Origin: Butyrivibrio sp.
GTDB lineage: Bacteria; Bacillota; Clostridia; Lachnospirales; Lachnospiraceae
Length of the DNA stretch: 64,000 bases
Direction of reading: 5' to 3'
Assembly: GCA_022486625.1 (NCBI GenBank)
Contig: JAKVKH010000003.1
Coordinates: 1 to 64,000 of the forward strand
Positions 2,807-13,832 of this stretch are shown here, one piece after another. The notes under the pieces were generated by a model, which was not told where the DNA came from, made no database searches, and saw only the letters and a program-made list of their open reading frames with translations. The position numbers and the translations under genes are program-made. The number at the start of each line of letters is the position of its first letter. Position 1 is the stretch's first letter.

Positions 2807-3004
2807 ATGAAAAACAAAGATATAATTAAGGAAGCCAGAAACAACGGATGGTGGCTCCTCAGAAATGGGCACGATCATGACATCTATACAAATGGTGTCA
2901 ATACAATTCCGATACCAAGACATAAAGAAATTAATGAAAATACCGCTCGCGGAATCATCAGAGTTATTCGGGAAGGCAAGGCCTGGAAAGGAAATAAAGA
3001 ATGA
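2807..3004 (+). CDS. hicA: HicA family mRNA interferase toxin
   Basis: The 65-residue protein has the double-stranded-RNA-binding-like HicA fold signature: a Gly-His-Asp-His segment at residues 21-24, where the catalytic histidine lies, and the TIPIPRHKEI...ARGIIR tail typical of the family. HicA cleaves mRNA and tmRNA and is neutralised by HicB. It overlaps hicB by 4 bp (ATGA at 3001-3004), indicating translational coupling. It sits immediately upstream of the CRISPR-Cas locus. Confidence 0.9.
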   Translation: MKNKDIIKEARNNGWWLLRNGHDHDIYTNGVNTIPIPRHKEINENTARGIIRVIREGKAWKGNKE

Positions 3005-3399
3005 GAAAAGCATACAGAATCAGTGTGACAAAAGAAAAGAATCAGAAGTATGCATACAACGTCTATGTGCCTGATTTTAAAATATATACAGAAGGCAGGG
3101 ATCTGGCAGATGCGATGTATATGGCAAGGGATGCGATCGGGATGACCATCATGGTAAGAGAAGATGAAGGGATGTTGATACCGGAACCTGACAGCGTTGA
3201 ATTTGAGCCTGAATCCGGGAGTATTGTAACTTATGTCGATGTGGATACAGAGGAGTACAGGAAAAAGCATGACAACAGGGCAGTAAAGAAAAATTGTACC
3301 ATCCCGTATTATCTGAATGCTGAAGCAGAAAAGGCAGGGATAAATTTTTCAAAGGTACTGCAGGAGGCTCTGATTAAGAAATTGAAGCCTCAGAAATGA
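3001..3399 (+). CDS. hicB: HicB family antitoxin
   Basis: The 132-residue protein has an N-terminal HicB-like domain (about residues 10-75, partial RNase H-like fold) that binds the toxin. The C-terminal stretch around residues 98-130 (TIPYYLNAEAEKAGINFSKV) reads as a ribbon-helix-helix DNA-binding domain, which would repress the hicAB promoter. The gene order toxin then antitoxin is the usual one for hic. A clear terminator follows at 3419-3455. Confidence 0.9.
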   Translation: MRKAYRISVTKEKNQKYAYNVYVPDFKIYTEGRDLADAMYMARDAIGMTIMVREDEGMLIPEPDSVEFEPESGSIVTYVDVDTEEYRKKHDNRAVKKNCTIPYYLNAEAEKAGINFSKVLQEALIKKLKPQK

Positions 3400-3455: not shown

Positions 3456-3516
3456 GTGTAATAATTTGCAAAACATTTTTCGTTTCAATTCAGAACTATA
3501 TTATGGCAGACATTAA

Positions 3517-3689: not shown

Positions 3690-5999
3690 ATGACAGAGCA
3701 AACAGGTAAAGAAAATAAACCGTATATTGCACATTGGAGAAAAGCAAAAGACAAAAGCGATTATATTGTAATTGATGAAAACGGACAGAATATAAAAGTA
3801 GAGGTACAGTTTATAGTTGATCATTTAAAGAACACTTCTGAACTTGCAGCAGCCTTTGCGGACTGCTTTGGTGCATCAGAGTATGCGGCACAGATGGGGT
3901 TGGTACATGATATCGGTAAGTATTCCAGCGAATTCCAGAAGCGAATTTGGGAAAATGCACCAAAGGTTGACCATTCAACAGCTGGCGCAAAAGAAGTAAT
4001 TGCAATCAATGATAGAAATCTGGTTGGTATGGCTGCTGCATATTGCATAGCAGGGCATCATGCAGGTTTATTAAATGGCGGGTCGATTTATGATAGTAAT
4101 GGTACAGTCAGGAGTTTATACGCCAGACTTAACAAAGAACTGCCTGATTATAATGCGTACAGAGCCAATATAAAACTGGAAAAATTACAAACGCATCCGA
4201 GTCTGAATATACTTGGTATGTCAAATACAGATAGTGGGATGTTCAGTGTTATGCTATGGATTCGAATGCTTTTTTCCTGTCTGGTGGATGCGGATTATCT
4301 GGATACGGAATCATTCATGAAATATGGAGAGTGTAAACGTGATCCTGGAGAAATTATGGTTTCTCTGCTGAACAGATTGAACAGGCATATTAAGGAGAAA
4401 AACTGGCTTCAGGGAGAAAATCGTATAAACAGATTGAGATCAGAAATCCTTCAAAACTGTATAAATAAGGGAAATGAATGTAAAGGCGGAATTTTAACAC
4501 TTACAGTTCCAACAGGAGGAGGAAAAACAGTAGCATCTCTTGCCTTTGCATTGAATCATGCAGTAAAAATGGATAAAAAAAGGATTATTTATGTTATTCC
4601 GTACTGCTCGATTATTGATCAGACGGTAGATGTATTTACAGATATTCTCGGAGAGAGAAATGTTCTGGCACATTATTCGAATATTGATATTACAGAAAGT
4701 ACAGCAGAAGATGATATTGCTTATTCAAAAGAACTTGCGACTGAAAATTGGGAGAAGCCAATCGTTGTAACGACGGCAGTGCAGTTTTTTGAGTCGTTGT
4801 TTGCCGATAAAACATCTCAATGCAGGAAGCTTCATAATATGGCGGATTCAGTAATTATTTTTGATGAGGCACAGACATTGCCACAACCATATCTAAAACC
4901 ATGTATTGCAGTCATATCTGAACTTGTTCAGAATTATGACTGTACTTGCGTTCTATGTACAGCAACGCAACCGGCGTTGAACCGGTTCTTTGAAAAAATA
5001 TATATAAATCATAAACCTGCTGAAATGAAAACCACAGAGATCTGTGAAGATACAGAAAAACTATATAAAGAGTTCAAACGCGTTACATACAAAATGAGAG
5101 GGAGGCTTGATGATGAAGAACTTGCTGAAGAACTGATGGAACAGGATCAGGTCCTTTGTGTTGTTGTGACAAGAAAACAGGCTTATAACGTTTATCATCT
5201 GATGTCGGGCGAAGGAAATTATCATTTGTCTAAATGTATGACGTCCAAGGATATCAGGGATACATTAGCTGAAATCTGTATAAGACTTGAAGCGAAGAAA
5301 ACCTGTCGCGTAATTGCCACCAACCTTGTGGAAGCTGGTGTTGATCTTGATTTCAGAACGGTATATAGAGCAAAAGCAGGACTTGACAGTATTATTCAGG
5401 CAGGGGGCAGGTGTAACAGGGAAGGAAAAAATTCTACAGAAGAAAGTATTGTATATATTTTTGAACCGGAAGATCGATATCTGACGCATTTACCGGATAT
5501 GCTCAAAAGGCCGGCTTCAATAACGGAAGTTGTGACAAAAGATGTAGTGGATATGGCTGAACAGAAAGTTGTCAGCAGGTATTTTAATAATCTGTTTAAT
5601 CATCTGGATGGGGAAACAGCAGAAACTTCAGATGGTCTGGATGTAAAAAGAATTATGCATAGAATTAGCGAATGCCAGAAATTATCGTTTCCGTTTGCAG
5701 ACATTGCAAGAGACTTTAAACTGATTGATAACCAGACGGTATCAGTGCTTATTCCATCAGATGAAACAAGCCATGTGCTTTCTGAAAAACTTCAGAATGC
5801 CAAAGAATATATGAATTCTGATGATTATAGAAAAATCGGAAAATATTGTGTAAATATATATGCGCAGAATCTTAAAGCATTGAGAAATTCTGTAATTATG
5901 ATCAGCGATGACTTAGCAATACTTGCGGTGGAGGAGTTGTATGATAAGCATACAGGACTAAAAATGGAGGATGAAGGTGGAAATGCGCTTTTCTCCTGA
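3690..5999 (+). CDS. cas3: CRISPR-associated nuclease-helicase Cas3 (type I-C)
   Basis: The 769-residue protein has an N-terminal HD nuclease domain (LVHDIGK at about 71-77 and VDHSTAG near 93) followed by an SF2 helicase with Walker A TVPTGGGKT (about 272-280) and a DEAQ box (about 391). Recruited by Cascade, it unwinds and degrades target DNA. The length is usual for I-C Cas3. The ribosome site AAGGAG lies upstream of ATG 3690. It is separated from cas5c by 223 bp that hold the crRNA-like RNA gene, so cas3 and the cas5c-cas2 operon may be controlled separately. Confidence 0.95.
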   Translation: MTEQTGKENKPYIAHWRKAKDKSDYIVIDENGQNIKVEVQFIVDHLKNTSELAAAFADCFGASEYAAQMGLVHDIGKYSSEFQKRIWENAPKVDHSTAGAKEVIAINDRNLVGMAAAYCIAGHHAGLLNGGSIYDSNGTVRSLYARLNKELPDYNAYRANIKLEKLQTHPSLNILGMSNTDSGMFSVMLWIRMLFSCLVDADYLDTESFMKYGECKRDPGEIMVSLLNRLNRHIKEKNWLQGENRINRLRSEILQNCINKGNECKGGILTLTVPTGGGKTVASLAFALNHAVKMDKKRIIYVIPYCSIIDQTVDVFTDILGERNVLAHYSNIDITESTAEDDIAYSKELATENWEKPIVVTTAVQFFESLFADKTSQCRKLHNMADSVIIFDEAQTLPQPYLKPCIAVISELVQNYDCTCVLCTATQPALNRFFEKIYINHKPAEMKTTEICEDTEKLYKEFKRVTYKMRGRLDDEELAEELMEQDQVLCVVVTRKQAYNVYHLMSGEGNYHLSKCMTSKDIRDTLAEICIRLEAKKTCRVIATNLVEAGVDLDFRTVYRAKAGLDSIIQAGGRCNREGKNSTEESIVYIFEPEDRYLTHLPDMLKRPASITEVVTKDVVDMAEQKVVSRYFNNLFNHLDGETAETSDGLDVKRIMHRISECQKLSFPFADIARDFKLIDNQTVSVLIPSDETSHVLSEKLQNAKEYMNSDDYRKIGKYCVNIYAQNLKALRNSVIMISDDLAILAVEELYDKHTGLKMEDEGGNALFS

Positions 6000-6086
6000 A
6001 AAAAGTGCCTCCTGAGTATACAGGAGGCACTTGGCCGAAATACTTTAAAAAATCATGTTTCAATCCGCTCTTATATATTAAGAGAC
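5999..6086 (-). ncRNA. CreR-like crRNA mimic: degenerate repeat, pseudo-spacer and terminator
   Basis: Read on the minus strand, a 30-nt pseudo-repeat (6086-6057) begins GTC, forms a 6-bp stem (CTCTTA 6084-6079 with TAAGAG 6073-6068) and ends GGATTGAAAC. It matches the array repeat in its 5' GTC, central hairpin, AGCG and the ATTGAAA handle. Next come a 24-nt pseudo-spacer (6056-6033) and a perfect 12-bp terminator hairpin (6032-6021 with 6014-6003) followed by six T (6004-5999). A promoter lies at the right distance upstream, placing +1 at about 6086. The RNA would be about 88 nt. Its first 17 spacer positions match 6148-6132 with one mismatch. The architecture is that of CreA/CreR RNAs, which load into Cascade and repress rather than cut. 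Expression is not shown by sequence. Confidence 0.85.
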
Positions 6087-6092
6087 GTGTTT

Positions 6093-6121
6093 ATCATAAT
6101 ATATGTAAGATAGAATGACAA
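6093..6121 (-). promoter_or_regulatory. Promoter of the crRNA-like RNA
   Basis: On the minus strand, TTGTCA (6121-6116) and TATGAT (6098-6093) are separated by exactly 17 bp. Transcription should start about 7 nt downstream, at the G (6086) that opens the pseudo-repeat. The promoter is divergent from the cas5c promoter. Confidence 0.8.
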
Positions 6122-6131
6122 GCAATAAAAT

Positions 6132-6151
6132 ATACTTTAAAATATCATGAA
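6132..6151 (-). promoter_or_regulatory. Cascade target (PAM plus protospacer) matched by the crRNA-like RNA
   Basis: On the minus strand, TTC (6151-6149), the known type I-C PAM, is followed by a 17-nt protospacer (6148-6132) identical to the first 17 nt of the pseudo-spacer except at position 6 (A in the target, T in the RNA gene). Matching then breaks off. Limited pairing of this kind allows Cascade binding without interference in known CreA/CreR systems. The site lies 7 bp upstream of the cas5c -35 box and 10 bp from the -35 of the RNA's own promoter, so it could control both. Confidence 0.8.
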
Positions 6152-6158
6152 ATAAATA

Positions 6159-6187
6159 TTGACATTAGGCCGTTAATGACCTACCAT
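6159..6187 (+). promoter_or_regulatory. Promoter of the cas5c-cas2 operon
   Basis: A consensus -35 TTGACA (6159-6164) and a -10 TACCAT (6182-6187) are 17 bp apart, which predicts a start near 6194 and a short leader to the TTG start at 6223. The AT-rich stretch upstream, where an UP element would lie, contains the Cascade target site. Confidence 0.75.
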
Positions 6188-6222
6188 TAAATGCAAGAGA
6201 ACAAGGAAAGGAGGGGGTAAAT

Positions 6223-6873
6223 TTGAGTTATGGAGTGCGGGTTGAGACATGGGGCGAGTATGCTCTCTTTTCAAGACCGGAACTGAAAACAGAGCGAATG
6301 AGTTATGAGGTGATAACGCCATCTGCGGCACGTGGGCTGATTGAAAGCATCTATTGGCACCCTGGTTTGAATGTGGTAATTGACAAAATTTATGTACTAA
6401 ACAAAATTCAATTTACAAATATTCGAAGGAACGAGGTGAAAAGTAAAGCAAGTCTGGCACAGGTAAAAAGCATGATGAATGGAGGCTCTGCACCTATGAT
6501 CATCAGCAGTAATGATATCATGCAGAGAGCTTCTACAATACTTCGGGATGTTCATTATGTAATTGATTCACATTTTGAACTGACAGATAAAGCTGCACCG
6601 GGAGATAATGAAGGCAAATTCAAGGATATCTTCAGACGCAGAATTGAAAAGGGTATGGCATATTCACAACCGTATTTTGGATGCCGTGAGTTTCCGGCCT
6701 ATTTCAGACCATGGGTTGGAGATGCAGTTCCAACAAGCGGAGAAACGAAGGATCTTGGACTTATGTTGTATGATATGGATTACAGTGATCCTCAGAATAT
6801 CAGACCGATGTTTTTTATGGCGAAACTTGAAAACGGAGTTATGCAGGTGGCAGGAGAGAAGGTGCTTGAATGA
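6223..6873 (+). CDS. cas5c: Cas5c, pre-crRNA processing subunit of type I-C Cascade
   Basis: The 216-residue protein matches the Cas5 type I-C family (N-terminal YGVRVETWGEYALFSRPE, then TPSAARGLIESIYW near residues 30-45). In I-C systems, which lack Cas6, Cas5c cleaves the repeat and stays on the 5' handle. The start is TTG at 6223, supported by a strong GGAGGGGG at 6210-6217; no ATG with a ribosome site fits better. It overlaps cas8c by 4 bp (ATGA). It should also recognise the stem of the crRNA-like RNA. Confidence 0.93.
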   Translation: MSYGVRVETWGEYALFSRPELKTERMSYEVITPSAARGLIESIYWHPGLNVVIDKIYVLNKIQFTNIRRNEVKSKASLAQVKSMMNGGSAPMIISSNDIMQRASTILRDVHYVIDSHFELTDKAAPGDNEGKFKDIFRRRIEKGMAYSQPYFGCREFPAYFRPWVGDAVPTSGETKDLGLMLYDMDYSDPQNIRPMFFMAKLENGVMQVAGEKVLE

Positions 6874-8630
6874 TTCTTCAGTCATTAGTAAAGCAGTATG
6901 ATGCGCTTGCAGAAAAAGGAAAAATTGCAAAAGTGGGATGGAGCGTTGCAAAGGTATCCTATGCGCTTGTACTCGATGATACAGGGCAGCTCGTGAATAT
7001 CATATCGAGAAAAACCGAGTCAGAGGATCATAAAAAAATGCTTCCGGCAATGCTTTATGTTCCAGAACAGGTAAAGAAGACTTCGGGCGTTGCGTCTAAT
7101 TTTATGTGTGAGAACTCCTCTTATTTTCTTGGCTATGATATGAAGAACAAGCCTGATAAGGCACAGAAATGCTTTGAAGCTGCACGGGAATTGCATCATC
7201 AGATATTGGATCATATATCGTCCAAAGAAGCACAGAAGGTTCTTTCCTATTTTGATACCTGGGATGTGAAATCTGCGAGCACCAATGAATATATTATTCC
7301 AATACTGAAAGATATCGAAAAAGGGGTGAATTTTATTTTTGAGGATGAGGATGGACATTCACTTCATAATAACCTTCAGATTGTTTCTGCATGGGATCGG
7401 TACAGACAGAGCAAAGGTTCAGATGCAATTATGGGCAGATGTCTTTTGACTGGTGAATTGGCACCAATTGCGGTATTACATCCATCTATTAAAGGAATAC
7501 GGGGAGCGCAATCATCAGGTGCTTCACTTGTTTCTTTTAACGCATCGGCCAGTGAATCTTATGGGAATGATTCAGGACAAGGCAAAAATGCTCCGGTGAG
7601 TGAACTTGCGGCATTTAAGTATGGGGCAGCCCTGAATTATCTTATTGCAGAAGGCGGACATATTCAATATGTTGCAGATACTGCATTGGTATATTGGGCA
7701 GAAGATGCGGAAACAGTATATCAGGATATTTTTGATATGGTATTGACTGGAAGCGAAAATCAGATTACTGATCAGGAACTGAGCAGTATTATGAAGCAGA
7801 TTGGAACTGGTGGATCTATCAATATAAAAGGAATTGATGTTTCATATGACAATCCTTTTTATGTGTTGGGAATTGCACCTAATGCAGCACGGCTTTCTGT
7901 CAGGTTCTTTCTGCAGAGCGAATTTGGCGAAATGCTCAGAAATTTGGATGAACATAACAGAAGATTGGAAATCGTACAGCCTGCAGGAGAAAACAAAAAA
8001 TTGCCAATATGGTTGATGCTAAATGAAACCGCAGATCAGAACAGTTCTGACAGGATGCCACCGCCTCCAATGGCAGGCGCTGTGCTAAAGGCAATTTTAA
8101 TGAATGCAAGGTATCCGGATTCGCTGTATGAAATGGTGATACTTCGAATTAGGGCTGAGCATGATCTGACATGGAAAAAGGCAGCAATTATTAAGGCATT
8201 TTTTATCAGAAATGGTGGACAAAACAGTAAAATGAGGGAGGTAGCGACAGTGAGTGTTAACGAAAGTGACTATGAACCATATGTGTTGGGAAGGATGTTT
8301 GCAGTTCTCGAAATGATCCAGAAAACGGCTAATCATGGAATCAAGGCAACAATTAAAGATCGGTATTTTACAAGTGCAGCATCTACGCCGGCGCACATTT
8401 TTCCAGTGTTATTAAGTCTTACACAACATCATTTAAAAAAGTTAAATGATGCCAGCAGAATTTATTATGATAAATTGTTAATGCAGTTGCAGAACATGAT
8501 TAACGAAAGTACATATCCGACGCGATTGAATCTGCAGGAGCAGGGAGCTTTTTATCTTGGCTATTATCATGAAAAGCAGGCATTGTACACTAAAAAGGAG
8601 AATGGAGCGGAGGTAGCTGACCATGAGTGA
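6870..8630 (+). CDS. cas8c: Cas8c, large subunit of type I-C Cascade
   Basis: The 586-residue protein is the Csd1/Cas8c large subunit, which reads the PAM and recruits Cas3. In many I-C systems an internal start in this gene also yields the small subunit Cas11c; that is family knowledge and no internal start was resolved here. It overlaps cas5c by 4 bp and cas7c by 8 bp, which indicates tight translational coupling in one operon. The family was recognised from its position and overall sequence character; no simple catalytic motif is expected. Confidence 0.92.
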   Translation: MILQSLVKQYDALAEKGKIAKVGWSVAKVSYALVLDDTGQLVNIISRKTESEDHKKMLPAMLYVPEQVKKTSGVASNFMCENSSYFLGYDMKNKPDKAQKCFEAARELHHQILDHISSKEAQKVLSYFDTWDVKSASTNEYIIPILKDIEKGVNFIFEDEDGHSLHNNLQIVSAWDRYRQSKGSDAIMGRCLLTGELAPIAVLHPSIKGIRGAQSSGASLVSFNASASESYGNDSGQGKNAPVSELAAFKYGAALNYLIAEGGHIQYVADTALVYWAEDAETVYQDIFDMVLTGSENQITDQELSSIMKQIGTGGSINIKGIDVSYDNPFYVLGIAPNAARLSVRFFLQSEFGEMLRNLDEHNRRLEIVQPAGENKKLPIWLMLNETADQNSSDRMPPPPMAGAVLKAILMNARYPDSLYEMVILRIRAEHDLTWKKAAIIKAFFIRNGGQNSKMREVATVSVNESDYEPYVLGRMFAVLEMIQKTANHGIKATIKDRYFTSAASTPAHIFPVLLSLTQHHLKKLNDASRIYYDKLLMQLQNMINESTYPTRLNLQEQGAFYLGYYHEKQALYTKKENGAEVADHE

Positions 8631-9534
8631 GACAATTAAAAACCGTTATGAATTTGTAGTATATTTTGATGTAACAAATGGTAATCCAAATGGAGATCCT
8701 GATGCCGGTAATATGCCACGTATAGATCCGGAAACAGGACTCGGAATCGTGACCGATGTCTGCTTAAAACGAAAAATTCGGAACTACGTTGAAACAGTAA
8801 AGGAAGATGTAAAAGGATATCGCATTTATATCAAGAAAGATGTGCCGTTAAACCGCAGCGATAATGAAGCATTTAAGGAACTTGGAATTGAAAATGCAGC
8901 AGAAGATAAAGAGTTAAAGAAAAAGCTTAAGGATTTGAAAAAAGAAACAAATCCGGATCTTGTTGTACGTGATTATATGTGCAGTGAGTTCTTTGATGTT
9001 CGTACTTTTGGAGCAGTTGTAACAACGGCGGTAAAAGGTGCACTTAACTGCGGACAGGTAAGGGGACCTGTACAGCTGAGCTTTGCAAGGTCGGTTGATC
9101 CTGTTATCGCTCAGGAAGTAACGATAACGCGTGTCGCAATTACAACAGAAGCTGATGCTGAGAACAAAAGTAATGAGATGGGATCCAAATATATTATTCC
9201 ATATGGCCTTTATCGTTGTGAAGGATATGTCTCTGCAAATCTGGCAAGAAAAACGACCGGATTTTCAGAGGAAGATCTGAACCTTTTGTGGGATGCAATT
9301 ATTAATATGTTTGAGTTTGACAGATCAGCACTTCGGGGGCAGATGGCAGTTCGAAAACTTATCATTTTCAAGCATGCTAATGAACTTGGCTGTGCCCCAG
9401 CACATAAACTTTTTGATCTGGTGTCTGCAACAAGAAATGAAGGAGTTGAATTCCCACGAAGTATTAAAGACTATACAATTTCAGTTGACGAAAAGGCACT
9501 TCCTGAGGGCGTTACCATGGAGCAGAGAGATTAA
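8623..9534 (+). CDS. cas7c: Cas7c (Csd2), crRNA-binding backbone subunit
   Basis: The 303-residue protein shows the N-terminal family pattern FDVTNGNPNGDPDAGNMPR, typical of Csd2/Cas7 RAMP proteins, and a central RGPVQLSFARS segment. Several copies line the crRNA and fold out every sixth nucleotide of the guide in type I Cascades. This is relevant here because the only mismatch between the pseudo-spacer and its target is at position 6. The ATG lies within the end of cas8c. Confidence 0.95.
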   Translation: MSETIKNRYEFVVYFDVTNGNPNGDPDAGNMPRIDPETGLGIVTDVCLKRKIRNYVETVKEDVKGYRIYIKKDVPLNRSDNEAFKELGIENAAEDKELKKKLKDLKKETNPDLVVRDYMCSEFFDVRTFGAVVTTAVKGALNCGQVRGPVQLSFARSVDPVIAQEVTITRVAITTEADAENKSNEMGSKYIIPYGLYRCEGYVSANLARKTTGFSEEDLNLLWDAIINMFEFDRSALRGQMAVRKLIIFKHANELGCAPAHKLFDLVSATRNEGVEFPRSIKDYTISVDEKALPEGVTMEQRD

Positions 9535-9537
9535 GCG

Positions 9538-10197
9538 ATGAATGAAATTCCAGAGGAAGATTACAGGCAATTGTCCGAATTACAACATTTCATTTTTTGC
9601 CGCAGGCAATGGGCACTAATCCACATAGAACAGCAATGGAAGGAAAACCTGCTGACAACTAAGGGAGAAATTATGCATACGCGTGCCCATGATGAGGCAC
9701 TTACAGAAATGCGTGGAGACAAATTGATCGTTCGGGGAATGCGTGTTAAGGCTGATCGTCTGGCAGCGACAGGTATATGTGATGTAGTAGAGTTTACAAA
9801 AGATCCCAAGGGAATTATTCTGCATGGGCGGGAGGGAAAATGGAGTCCCCGCCCTGTAGAATATAAACGTGGAAAAGAGAAAAACGATCATTCTGATGAA
9901 TTACAGTTATGTGGTCAGGCAATATGCCTTGAGGAAATGTTATGCTGTAGAATTGAAACGGGAGATCTGTTTTATGGTGAAACACATCGTAGGACTTTGG
10001 TAGAATTCACACCAGAACTAAGGCAGATGGTAGTAAACGCCTTTACAGAAATGAACGAACTTTTTAATAAAGGATATACACCAAAAGTTCACATGAATAA
10101 ATTATGTCAATCGTGTTCATTGAAAGATATATGTGTTCCTGAAGTGGAACAGAAATCAGTGAAGGAATACTTCATTAATTCTTTGAAAAACGGGTGA
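9538..10197 (+). CDS. cas4: Cas4, Fe-S exonuclease of spacer acquisition
   Basis: The 219-residue protein is a RecB-like nuclease with four cysteines for a 4Fe-4S cluster (C21, then C190, C193, C199 in LCQSCSLKDIC). The nuclease acid at D82 and the VEYKRG motif at 107-112 are present. With Cas1-Cas2, Cas4 trims prespacers and ensures PAM choice and orientation. It starts 3 bp after cas7c and overlaps cas1 by 4 bp. Confidence 0.95.
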   Translation: MNEIPEEDYRQLSELQHFIFCRRQWALIHIEQQWKENLLTTKGEIMHTRAHDEALTEMRGDKLIVRGMRVKADRLAATGICDVVEFTKDPKGIILHGREGKWSPRPVEYKRGKEKNDHSDELQLCGQAICLEEMLCCRIETGDLFYGETHRRTLVEFTPELRQMVVNAFTEMNELFNKGYTPKVHMNKLCQSCSLKDICVPEVEQKSVKEYFINSLKNG

Positions 10198-11237
10198 GCA
10201 ATATCATGAAAAAATTGCTGAATACGTTGTTTGTACTGACACCAGACAGCTATCTTTCTCTAAAAAACGAGAATGTAGTAATTCATACTGAAGACGGAGA
10301 TAACAGGATGATTCCATTGATTGGTCTGGAAAGCATTTTATGCTTTTCGTATAAAGGTGCAAGTCCTGAACTGATTGGAAAATGTGTTCAAAATAATATC
10401 GCTATTACATTTCTGACACCAAATGGAGCATTTCTTGCATCTGCAACAGGAAAGTCAGCAGGGAATGTTTTACTCCGAAAAGAACAATATAAGATATCAG
10501 ACGATCTTTCGCGAAGCTGTGAAATTGCAAAATATATGACGCTTGGAAAAATTTATAATTCCAGATATTGTATTGATCGGACGATAAGAGATCATTCAAT
10601 GCGTATTGATGTTGAAAAATTAAAAAAAGCGGAGAATTGTCTGCAAACAGTATGTACAGAACTGATGGATATCTCGGATCTTGACAGCCTGCGTGGAGAA
10701 GAGGGAAATGCAGCCAGAGAATATTTTAACGTGTTTAATGATATGATTTTGAATCAAAAGGAAGATTTCATATTTTCTGAGCGGACAAGAAGACCACCGC
10801 TTGATCGTGTGAATGCAATGCTTTCTTTTGGCTATACGTTACTGACACATGATTGTGCTGCAGCAATGGAAAGCGTGGGACTGGATTCATATGTTGGCTT
10901 TATGCACAGAGACAGACCGGGAAGAATGTCGGGTGCACTTGATCTGATGGAGGAACTGCGATGTATATTTGTGGATCGTTTTGTTTTAACTTTGATTAAT
11001 AACAAATCAATTGCACCTAGGAATTTCAATATTTCAGAAAATGGAGCTGTTTTGTTGGATGATACTGGCAGAAAGATTTTTCTGACAGCATGGCAGGAAA
11101 GAAAAAAGGAGGTAATTACCCATCCTTTTTTAAAAGAAAAAGTACAATGGGGATTAGTCCCATATATTCAGGCATTATTGCTGGCAAGATTTATACGTGG
11201 AGATTATGATGCGTATCCGGCTTTTCTCTGGAAATAG
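10194..11237 (+). CDS. cas1: Cas1, CRISPR integrase
   Basis: The 347-residue protein (from GTG 10194, overlapping the cas4 stop; ATG 10206 is an alternative) has the Cas1 catalytic regions: the glutamate in RGEEGNAAREYF near residue 168, the histidine in GFMHRDRPGRMS near 237, and the acidic LDLMEE segment after it. It integrates new spacers at the leader end with Cas2. The full length suggests a functional adaptation module. Confidence 0.95.
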   Translation: MSNIMKKLLNTLFVLTPDSYLSLKNENVVIHTEDGDNRMIPLIGLESILCFSYKGASPELIGKCVQNNIAITFLTPNGAFLASATGKSAGNVLLRKEQYKISDDLSRSCEIAKYMTLGKIYNSRYCIDRTIRDHSMRIDVEKLKKAENCLQTVCTELMDISDLDSLRGEEGNAAREYFNVFNDMILNQKEDFIFSERTRRPPLDRVNAMLSFGYTLLTHDCAAAMESVGLDSYVGFMHRDRPGRMSGALDLMEELRCIFVDRFVLTLINNKSIAPRNFNISENGAVLLDDTGRKIFLTAWQERKKEVITHPFLKEKVQWGLVPYIQALLLARFIRGDYDAYPAFLWK

Positions 11238-11246
11238 AGGTGGCAG

Positions 11247-11537
11247 ATGTTTGTTTTGATTACATATGATGTGAATACAGAATCCGAGGGTGGAAAAAAA
11301 CGTCTTCGTAAAGTTGCCAAGGAATGTGAAAAATATGGGCAGAGAGTGCAATGCTCAGTATTTGAATGTGTTCTTGAGCCTGCACAGTATGAAATGTTAA
11401 AATCAGAACTGACAAAAATAATGAATATGGAAAAGGATAGTGTACGCTTTTATTCTCTTGGTCAGAAATATGAGACGAAGATACAGGAATTTGGCAGAAA
11501 AAGAGAATTTGATCATGAGGGAATTTTATTATTTTAA
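11247..11537 (+). CDS. cas2: Cas2, spacer acquisition partner of Cas1
   Basis: The 96-residue ferredoxin-fold protein has the typical start MFVLITYDVNTES, with the acidic residue after the first strand, and the usual RVQCSVFEC segment. The dimer bridges two Cas1 dimers during spacer integration. It is the last gene of the operon. A GAGGTGG ribosome site precedes the ATG, and the AT-rich CRISPR leader follows immediately. Confidence 0.95.
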   Translation: MFVLITYDVNTESEGGKKRLRKVAKECEKYGQRVQCSVFECVLEPAQYEMLKSELTKIMNMEKDSVRFYSLGQKYETKIQEFGRKREFDHEGILLF

Positions 11538-11751: not shown

Positions 11752-13832
11752 GTCGCTCCCTTCGCGGGAGCGTGAATTGAAATAAACAGTGGTGTGCAAG
11801 TCATTCCGTCCATTCCGGTCGCTCCCTTCGCGGGAGCGTGAATTGAAATAAGTATCCATTGTGCTGTGTCCCTGTTGGATGCCGTCGCTCCCTTCGCGGG
11901 AGCGTGAATTGAAATCTTTAGGATATTTCATCATTTCATCACGCTTTCGTCGCTCCCTTCGCGGGAGCGTGAATTGAAATCAGTCTGTCGATTGCTGCAA
12001 TTCGATTTCTTTTAGGTCGCTCCCTTCGCGGGAGCGTGAATTGAAATTTCTGCGATATTACCTATCTGCAACACGGATTCAGTCGCTCCCTTCGCGGGAG
12101 CGTGAATTGAAATTTTTGTAATCCCCCGGCCTTTTAGCTCCGGGATTGTCGCTCCCTTCGCGGGAGCGTGAATTGAAATGTTCAGGTGTCCCTTTTCCCC
12201 GTAAATATCATTGTCGCTCCCTTCGCGGGAGCGTGAATTGAAATATCATAAAATCCACCTTCCCGCCTACCTCATAGGGTCGCTCCCTTCGCGGGAGCGT
12301 GAATTGAAATCTTGCGCGTCCGCTGCCTTTTGTATCTCCGCTTTGTCGCTCCCTTCGCGGGAGCGTGAATTGAAATAATAGCCATCCTCGCGCTGATCAG
12401 GTCATAGACTGTCGCTCCCTTCGCGGGAGCGTGAATTGAAATATCGTCCATATCCTCACAGTCAATCAATGTCCGCCGTCGCTCCCTTCGCGGGAGCGTG
12501 AATTGAAATTTAAACATTGCAACCATTACACCCACAACAATGCTGTCGCTCCCTTCGCGGGAGCGTGAATTGAAATTTGTTGTGTGCTTAATCTGCTCAA
12601 GTGTCATGTGTCGCTCCCTTCGCGGGAGCGTGAATTGAAATATTGGCATCCTTGATCCTTTTAATGCAATCCTGGCGTCGCTCCCTTCGCGGGAGCGTGA
12701 ATTGAAATATTTCACAAAGGGAAGTAAATGTTCTGGACAAGTCGCTCCCTTCGCGGGAGCGTGAATTGAAATAATCTGGTCTGCCAGCTCATGGTACTTT
12801 TTCAGCAGTCGCTCCCTTCGCGGGAGCGTGAATTGAAATACTGTGTACACCTTCTCATGTCGCGCGGCATAGCGTGTCGCTCCCTTCGCGGGAGCGTGAA
12901 TTGAAATAGTCTATCCTCGTGCGTATCAATGCGCTTGTGCTGTCGCTCCCTTCGCGGGAGCGTGAATTGAAATGAAGCTGTGCTACTGTTACGAAATTAA
13001 AACCATAGTCGCTCCCTTCGCGGGAGCGTGAATTGAAATAACGTCTATTTTGATCTTAACGACGAAATAGAGGCAGTCGCTCCCTTCGCGGGAGCGTGAA
13101 TTGAAATCAGTAAATGTAAGTATATTATTTCCCTCGACCAGTCGCTCCCTTCGCGGGAGCGTGAATTGAAATAAAAAATCAAATAAGTCAGAAACCGGAG
13201 CGTTGGGTCGCTCCCTTCGCGGGAGCGTGAATTGAAATATAAAAAGTATTACCCAACCGACAGGGGGTAAGAAGTCGCTCCCTTCGCGGGAGCGTGAATT
13301 GAAATTCATGTGGCAGGTCTTAATACGTCTGCCGCTGCGCTGTCGCTCCCTTCGCGGGAGCGTGAATTGAAATATGTTTCCGGGAATCTGATCCGGTACT
13401 ACTCCCGTCGCTCCCTTCGCGGGAGCGTGAATTGAAATGTCGATCGTATACGCCATTTCATCGTATGCCATTGTCGCTCCCTTCGCGGGAGCGTGAATTG
13501 AAATCATGTTTCCGTTGTATATCATACTTTTCCTTTCTGTCGCTCCCTTCGCGGGAGCGTGAATTGAAATATGGATATGGGTGCATAACGTACCCACAAT
13601 CTTGTCGCTCCCTTCGCGGGAGCGTGAATTGAAATCTGTAGAAGTAACTGTCTTGCCATTTACCTGAGTGTCGCTCCCTTCGCGGGAGCGTGAATTGAAA
13701 TAGATTGACGTAGGACGCACCGCAAAGCACGGCATGTCGCTCCCTTCGCGGGAGTGTGAATTGAAATTGACATTATTTCTCCGGAATAGAGATGTATTAA
13801 GCCGCTTCTTTCGCGGGAGTGTGAATTGGAAT
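11752..13832 (+). CRISPR. Type I-C CRISPR array, 32 repeats and 31 spacers
   Basis: The 32-bp repeat begins GTCGCTCCCTTCGCGGG and ends GTGAATTGAAAT. It folds through GCTCCC (positions 4-9) and GGGAGC (15-20). Repeat starts run from 11752 to 13801 with periods of 64-68 bp, giving spacers of 32-36 bp. Thirty repeats appear identical. Repeat 31 (13736) has one change at position 20, and repeat 32 (13801) has five (positions 2, 7, 9, 20, 29), as expected at the leader-distal end. Spacer targets cannot be named from the window. The array is transcribed on the plus strand, the same direction as the cas genes. Confidence 0.98.

Follow-up and report, generated by a model that had tools for sequence, protein, structure and literature searches.

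Between cas3 and cas5c of a type I-C locus in Butyrivibrio sp. (assembly GCA_022486625.1, contig JAKVKH010000003.1), a small minus-strand gene very probably encodes a CreR-type RNA by which the type I-C Cascade represses its own cas5c-cas8c-cas7c operon. Coordinates refer to the window, that is, the whole stretch of 64,000 nucleotides that was analysed (positions 1 to 64,000 of the contig, forward strand). The anatomy of the gene, its target, the protospacer-adjacent motif (PAM) beside that target, the pairing pattern of guide and target and the recurrence of the arrangement in other loci can be read from the sequence and point to such an RNA. A stand-alone Cascade guide of the CreR or CreA kind had been proposed in an earlier note on this DNA; the sequence supported the proposal, and a PAM-flanked target near the cas5c promoter sharpened it to CreR. 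The guide RNA gene, its target and the neighbouring promoter comprise the following features:

6093..6121, minus strand, promoter of the guide RNA gene, a consensus match (-35 TTGTCA at 6121-6116, 17-nt spacer, -10 TATGAT at 6098-6093)
6086, minus strand, predicted transcription start (+1) of the guide RNA gene
6057..6086, minus strand, degenerate type I-C repeat of 30 nt, GTCTCTTAATATATAAGAGCGGATTGAAAC
6033..6056, minus strand, guide of 24 nt
5999..6032, minus strand, intrinsic terminator with 12-bp stem, 6-nt loop and T tract
6132..6151, minus strand, target, consisting of a TTC PAM (6151-6149) and paired protospacer positions 1-17 (6148-6132)
6159..6187, plus strand, candidate cas5c-cas8c-cas7c promoter TTGACA-17-TACCAT, a consensus match

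Promoter, degenerate repeat, guide and terminator all lay on the minus strand (6121-5999) where the earlier note had placed them, exact to the base. The pseudo-repeat contains a 5' GTC, a 6-bp hairpin and an 11-nt handle, CGGATTGAAAC. Set against the handle of the clustered regularly interspaced short palindromic repeat (CRISPR) array of the same locus, TGAATTGAAAT, it is repeat-like, with hairpin and GTC also there, and it could serve Cascade. The predicted RNA (6086-5999) is 88 nt long, with a folding energy of -30.4 kcal/mol (z -5.3). The terminator, a perfect 12-bp hairpin of -21.8 kcal/mol (z -7.5), was equalled in stability by none of 200 shuffles, and its final base is also the final base of the cas3 stop codon; an automatic scan for terminators gave none, probably because the full 12-bp stem is followed by only four T. 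Taken alone, the pseudo-repeat hairpin (six consecutive pairs, z -2.1, 9 of 200 shuffles equally stable) is weak evidence, as are the promoter hexamers of the guide gene (3 promoter-like sites in 401 bases versus 1.4 in shuffles). No second match to the pseudo-repeat was found in the genome with up to three mismatches allowed, and the module consists of a single pseudo-repeat with a terminator, the second flanking repeat of the usual CreR form being absent. In an Rfam search of the gap every family stayed below its gathering score, the top one being ncr1575 with 25 bits versus 60, and a pattern search of IMG/VR with the handle and the guide gave 0 matches.

The guide stretch recurs at 6133-6150, as identified in a repeat search (family D3). 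Read on the minus strand, TTC is followed by the target ATGATATTTTAAAGTAT (6148-6132), to be compared with the guide ATGATTTTTTAAAGTAT, which lies 76 bp away. The first 17 nt of the guide match the target save at position 6, the next mismatch being position 18, and the pairing register agrees with the end of the array repeat. At the informative positions (1-17 minus 6 and 12) the agreement is 15/15 and the site is flanked by TTC, which is the PAM of a type I-C system described in PMC8406640. When the gap was dinucleotide-shuffled 5000 times, no site flanked by TTC scored above 12/15 (15 in the real sequence); without the PAM condition four of the same shuffles reached 14 and none 15. The target was also the sole genome site with 0 mismatches to the PAM-plus-17 pattern; the guide itself aside, one site had two mismatches and ten had three. 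The PAM stands 7 bp from the candidate cas5c -35, and cas5c starts 36 nt past the end of the candidate -10, so that the candidate targeted promoter runs straight into cas5c; no toxin gene is coupled to it in this locus. A full 35-nt protospacer would extend to 6114, over the -35 of the guide gene itself. Another handle-like site, at 3488 on the minus strand upstream of cas3, scored 11/15 in the wrong register and was put down to chance.

Cas5c was found in 45 of 397 genomes of the family, and the best 80 of at least 593 Cas5c loci from named genomes were used, a sample itself picked by likeness to the Cas5c of the window; the comparison set held 104 non-redundant loci (designated by L numbers), of which 99 had 200 nt or more of upstream sequence. 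In 30 family loci, the present one included, a blind scan for any TTGAAA in three registers and on both strands gave eight matches in eight loci, all in the native register and preceded by a hairpin pseudo-repeat. Across the 104 loci, 65 G[AG]TTGAAA sites were found within 1.6 kb upstream; for 31 of them the closest 17-mer found there, taken without PAM or mask, had at most three mismatches, and the PAM at these close matches was TTC in 26 cases, TTT in 2, TTA in 1 and AAA in 2 (TTC stood at 4 of the remaining 34 sites). An initial swap test, covering 38 hairpin sites, found at least 13/15 with TTC in 23 of 38 own loci versus 4 of 1402 swaps. A systematic scan reached 6 kb upstream, required no hairpin and took in 85 sites outside arrays; it gave at least 13/15 with TTN in 33 of 99 loci, against 10 of 7070 for swapped guides, or 30 of 99 and 5 of 7070 with TTC only. 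The search for conservation suggested in the earlier note, once run, thus showed 33 of 99 type I-C loci to have a pseudo-repeat and a guide with a local target of its own. We call a locus strict if it has at least 13/15 with a nearby TTN-flanked site; seven further loci are weaker candidates (L033, L051, L065, L081, L093, L117 and L118), and array matches were removed from the candidates (L080, two rows of L091, L107 and L109). A list of 39 loci was assembled by hand, whose 32 strict loci omit L049; the counts of promoter hexamers, terminators, strand, covariation and position given below rest on these 32.

A -10-like TANNNT hexamer preceded the repeat in 24 of the 32 strict loci, the present one included, the distance to the opening G[AT]C of the pseudo-repeat being 4-9 nt (13 of these 24 loci have 6 nt; no null was run), and a simple finder detected a terminator in 13 of 32 versus 17 of 960 random stretches. 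These counts belong to the conservation check named in the earlier note, which was made across the type I-C loci, the source genome being the only one of its genus with a Cas5c match. A strict or weaker candidate was present in 29 of 40 loci whose gap from cas5c to the next upstream open reading frame (ORF) is at least 200 nt, and in 10 of 57 with a gap below 200 nt (L049 not counted in either). The module precedes cas3 in L047 and L067.

Several loci deserve separate mention. L049, from an actinobacterial-named record (Enteroscipio rubneri), scored 13/15 with TTC on the plus strand at -2811 from cas5c, upstream of cas3. L158 (MT836695.1, labelled as a bacteriophage) carries a Cas5c relative and a guide-target candidate of 13/15 with TTC at -1134 from cas5c. 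L043 has two repeat-like units 67 nt apart (-363 and -296 from cas5c), possibly a mini-array ancestor of the one-repeat form; its second unit is listed with a matching guide in one place of the analysis and without a recognised target in another. For pseudo-repeats in L017 and L020 and the L043 unit at -296, the scan of 1.6 kb upstream recognised no target. In L017 the pseudo-repeat end GTGGATTGAAAT lies on the plus strand at -25 from cas5c, directly before the cas5c ribosome-binding site.

The pairing itself carries a signature. In 26 minus-strand pairs, chosen without PAM or mask, 38 of the 52 cells for positions 6 and 12 were mismatched, against 20 of 390 for the rest of 1-17; by position there were 18 mismatches at 6, 20 at 12 and 18 at 18, and 0 at 2-5. 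Five of the 31 close matches are missing from these 26: L056, L062 and L023, which have TTC but lack a GTC in the displayed stretch, and, both flanked by AAA, L093 (on the plus strand) and L020. Among the 32 strict pairs, positions 6 and 12 matched 10 and 7 times, for a composition expectation of 10.75 and 6.8, and thus appear to behave as if unpaired. Because type I complexes flip out every sixth base (PMC5904413, PMC11127173), the three blocks of five would be kept by selection, as a Cas7 filament would read them. Guide and target had also changed together, at positions 4, 9 and 17 between L039 and L040, at 3, 5 and 14 between L040 and L041, at 2, 4 and 14 between L092 and L019, and at 8, 10, 13 and 17 between L047 and L067. 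Unmatched changes occur in these locus pairs too, among them position 13 in both L039/L040 and L092/L019, positions 13 and 17 in L040/L041 and positions 1 and 3 in L047/L067.

In 21 of the 32 strict loci the target took one of two places relative to the predicted downstream promoter: in 11, the present locus included, it began 21-28 bp ahead of where the predicted -35 starts, and in 10 it began 24-33 bp past that point, over -10 and +1. Random placement gave a mean of 5.0 and a maximum of 16 in 20000 trials, the two position windows having been picked after the data were seen; the promoters are consensus matches, and the one picked varies between two analyses for L019, L023, L078 and L092. The target was on the strand of the guide gene in 21 of 32 strict loci and on the opposite strand in 11, which argues for DNA rather than mRNA as the target.

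The module lies within a complete type I-C locus whose genes were assigned by NCBIfam:

3690..5999, plus strand, cas3
6223..6873, plus strand, cas5c
6870..8630, plus strand, cas8c
8623..9534, plus strand, cas7c
9538..11537, plus strand, cas4, cas1c and cas2
11752..13767, plus strand, CRISPR array of 31 repeats, 32 nt each

The array repeat GTCGCTCCCTTCGCGGGAGCGTGAATTGAAAT is perfect in 30 of 31 copies and has one mismatch in the other. Cas5c is the expected nuclease for processing of precursor CRISPR RNA (pre-crRNA) in type I-C. A type I-C figure legend in PMC10651486 likewise gives this role to Cas5c. A HicA/HicB-like toxin-antitoxin pair (Pfam) occupies window positions 2807-3399, directly 5' of cas3 and away from the guide target. 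A nine-codon ORF with AGG AGG codons (6191-6220) overlaps the cas5c ribosome-binding site, probably by chance; it was the only small ORF spotted by eye near the targeted promoter.

From these features we infer transcription, processing, loading and repression, and a response to crRNA or anti-CRISPR levels. RNA polymerase would make an RNA of about 88 nt starting at the pseudo-repeat; Cas5c would bind the degenerate repeat or trim it to the 11-nt handle, and the terminator hairpin would substitute for the missing 3' repeat, in line with Escherichia coli crRNAs, where such a hairpin can function as a repeat does (PMC5904413). A Cas5c-Cas8c-Cas7c complex assembled on this RNA would locate the TTC PAM at 6151-6149 and pair with 6148-6132 in blocks 1-5, 7-11 and 13-17, sufficient for binding and too short for attack by Cas3. 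Since the match is kept only up to position 17 and type I-C interference in Xanthomonas required 27 matched bases (PMC8406640), binding without Cas3 attack is to be expected. Placed between two divergent promoters, the complex would repress cas5c-cas8c-cas7c and possibly its own guide gene too. Free Cascade would thereby limit its own synthesis, and array crRNAs or anti-CRISPRs that draw Cascade away would relieve the block. Repression of this kind has a type I-C example, in which CRISPR interference (CRISPRi) with a TTC-flanked spacer over the -10 lowered the transcript about tenfold (PMC10865793).

Several points weigh against repression of the operon by such an RNA. The spacer in that CRISPRi example was of normal length (PMC10865793), and in E. 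coli type I-E, PAM-distal mismatches greatly weaken repression by Cascade and off-target Cascade binding occurs with no effect on transcription (PMC5904413). The paired block in the present locus lies upstream of the -35, off the promoter itself. Neither a strict nor a weaker candidate was found within the scans in 59 of 99 loci, and 24 of 27 hold-out loci (class-level, with upstream DNA) lacked the module; the three with it were L119, whose guide and target are identical to those of L056, L128 (14/15) and L130 (12/15, below the strict mark). None of 11 distant type I-C loci on plasmids, drawn from 50 plasmid records with a match, reached 13/15 (Nitratidesulfovibrio, Zymomonas, Rhizobium, Leptolinea, Acidisoma, Brevibacillus, Thermus, Streptomyces, Treponema, Parabacteroides and Deinococcus), the best value being 12/15 in Thermus, in the wrong register. 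No close relative has a copy of its own: Cas5c was matched in 1 of 79 genomes of the genus, namely the source genome itself, and the genus may therefore have gained its type I-C locus only recently. Among the loci examined, the module is thus frequent in clostridial type I-C systems close to the present one and not universal.

Other explanations of the same data were considered. The RNA and its binding could be as proposed, with the main role being regulation of the guide gene itself or activation of cas5c. The complex would sit upstream of the cas5c -35, with the PAM 7 bp before it, a 35-nt protospacer would cover the -35 of the guide gene, and the target precedes the predicted -35 by 21-28 bp in 11 of 32 strict loci; in 10 of 32, however, it covers the downstream -10/+1, which is best explained by repression, and we regard this alternative as unlikely. 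An antitoxin of the CreA type, guarding a toxin RNA or toxin gene as in CreTA or CrePA, is less probable still. Its anatomy would agree with one-repeat creA with a terminator (PMC8501985), and L092, L015, L019 and L025 have a DUF3990 gene pair downstream of the target, but the targeted promoter of the present locus feeds directly into cas5c, the sole small ORF noted (6191-6220, 9 codons) overlaps the cas5c ribosome-binding site, and HicAB is upstream of cas3 rather than near the target. Of the two possibilities in the earlier note the CreR one is supported by the sequence, whereas a CreA guarding a CreT was set aside because the promoter leads into cas5c.

That the unit is a degenerate array remnant or a phage repeat mimic (Racr) with no regulatory role here appears highly improbable. 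It is indeed degenerate and solitary, and Racrs are solitary repeats that often stand right behind a promoter (PMC10651486). Nothing, however, would make a remnant retain a matching local target with a PAM, as seen in 33 of 99 loci together with compensatory changes; solitary repeats of viruses, according to PMC10651486, are not associated with cas genes, and the handle-plus-guide pattern had no match in IMG/VR. We give equally little credence to an antisense RNA acting on a cas3-cas5c read-through mRNA instead of on DNA: the guide of the present locus could base-pair with read-through RNA from the plus strand, yet pairing with cas mRNA is impossible in the 11 of 32 strict loci with the target on the opposite strand, and neither a PAM nor a six-base mismatch rhythm would make sense for plain antisense pairing.

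In some relatives the module precedes a two-gene cassette between cas3 and cas5c. This was seen in four strict loci (L092, L015, L019 and L025) and, with weaker candidates, in L033 and L093. The cassette in L092 (9068-9974) consists of a DUF3990 gene (Pfam E-value 3.7e-50) and a partner, which match the PADLOC candidates PDC-M10A and PDC-M10B; in the other loci the pair was found by tblastn. L020 and L026 carry the pair with no recognised guide-target match, the pair in L093 is broken and L066 has the partner gene only. In L092 and L025 a 35-bp protospacer would adjoin the -35 of the promoter ranked best; by eye the same holds in L015 and L019, where the automatic pick was another site. DUF3990 belongs to the Pfam ADP-ribosyltransferase clan (PMC7955679) and may act as a toxin in these relatives, so that the target in the four strict loci is possibly the promoter of a protein toxin, as in CrePA. 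A further reading, somewhat less likely than not, is that the one-repeat guide RNA is a widespread clostridial type I-C switch on the internal cas5c promoter that was also co-opted for the DUF3990 pair. If so, the switch would be placed between or on divergent promoters, the DUF3990 pair would come under Cascade control ahead of cas5c, and loss or inhibition of Cascade would release new Cascade together with the candidate toxin.

RNA-guided self-repression of CRISPR-Cas would hereby extend to subtype I-C, in a minimal one-repeat form. The guide-target pairs would record, via evolution alone, the bases read by a type I complex, three blocks of five with the sixth free, and testable pairs are at hand in Eubacterium barkeri VPI 5359 (L056), Lachnoclostridium sp. 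An196 (L092) and Hydrogenoanaerobacterium saccharovorans An564 (L085). The DUF3990 loci could also point the way to CRISPR-repressed toxins beyond those of the FtsZ class, the subject of a question raised in a 2025 review (PMC12737573).

Like CreR, the module would specify a crRNA-like RNA within a cas locus, with partial complementarity to a cas promoter and no toxin in its own locus; unlike known CreRs, it belongs to type I-C, combines a single repeat with an intrinsic terminator and is aimed at the internal promoter before cas5c. The CreRs of Liu et al. (2023) are reportedly derived from two-repeat mini-CRISPRs. Shmakov et al. (2023) are said to have predicted crRNA-like regulatory elements computationally, a class that should include such type I elements. 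No CreR in type I-C was among the matches listed in the literature search, although Shmakov et al. may list type I-C elements. CreRs are described for I-B, I-E and V-A (PMC13131331; see also PMC12737573). The degenerate repeat, short guide and TTC PAM are shared with CreA of CreTA, of which a one-repeat form with a T-rich terminator is described in Haloarcula hispanica (PMC8501985), but CreA represses a toxin RNA, whereas the promoter targeted here serves cas5c. The likeness to CrePA is that in four relatives a pair of protein-coding genes, a candidate toxin pair, follows the guide target; CreP typically has a KilA-N domain and acts on FtsZ (PMC12737573), in place of which the relatives have DUF3990 and the present locus neither. 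Solitary type I-C repeat units that act on the type I-C Cascade are known too, namely the Racrs (PMC10651486), which are inhibitors in mobile elements apart from cas genes, whereas the present unit lies between cas3 and cas5c within a complete type I-C locus. The CreR class as such is known; what appears to be new here is a putative CreR-type RNA in type I-C, in a single-repeat form and aimed at the internal cas5c promoter.

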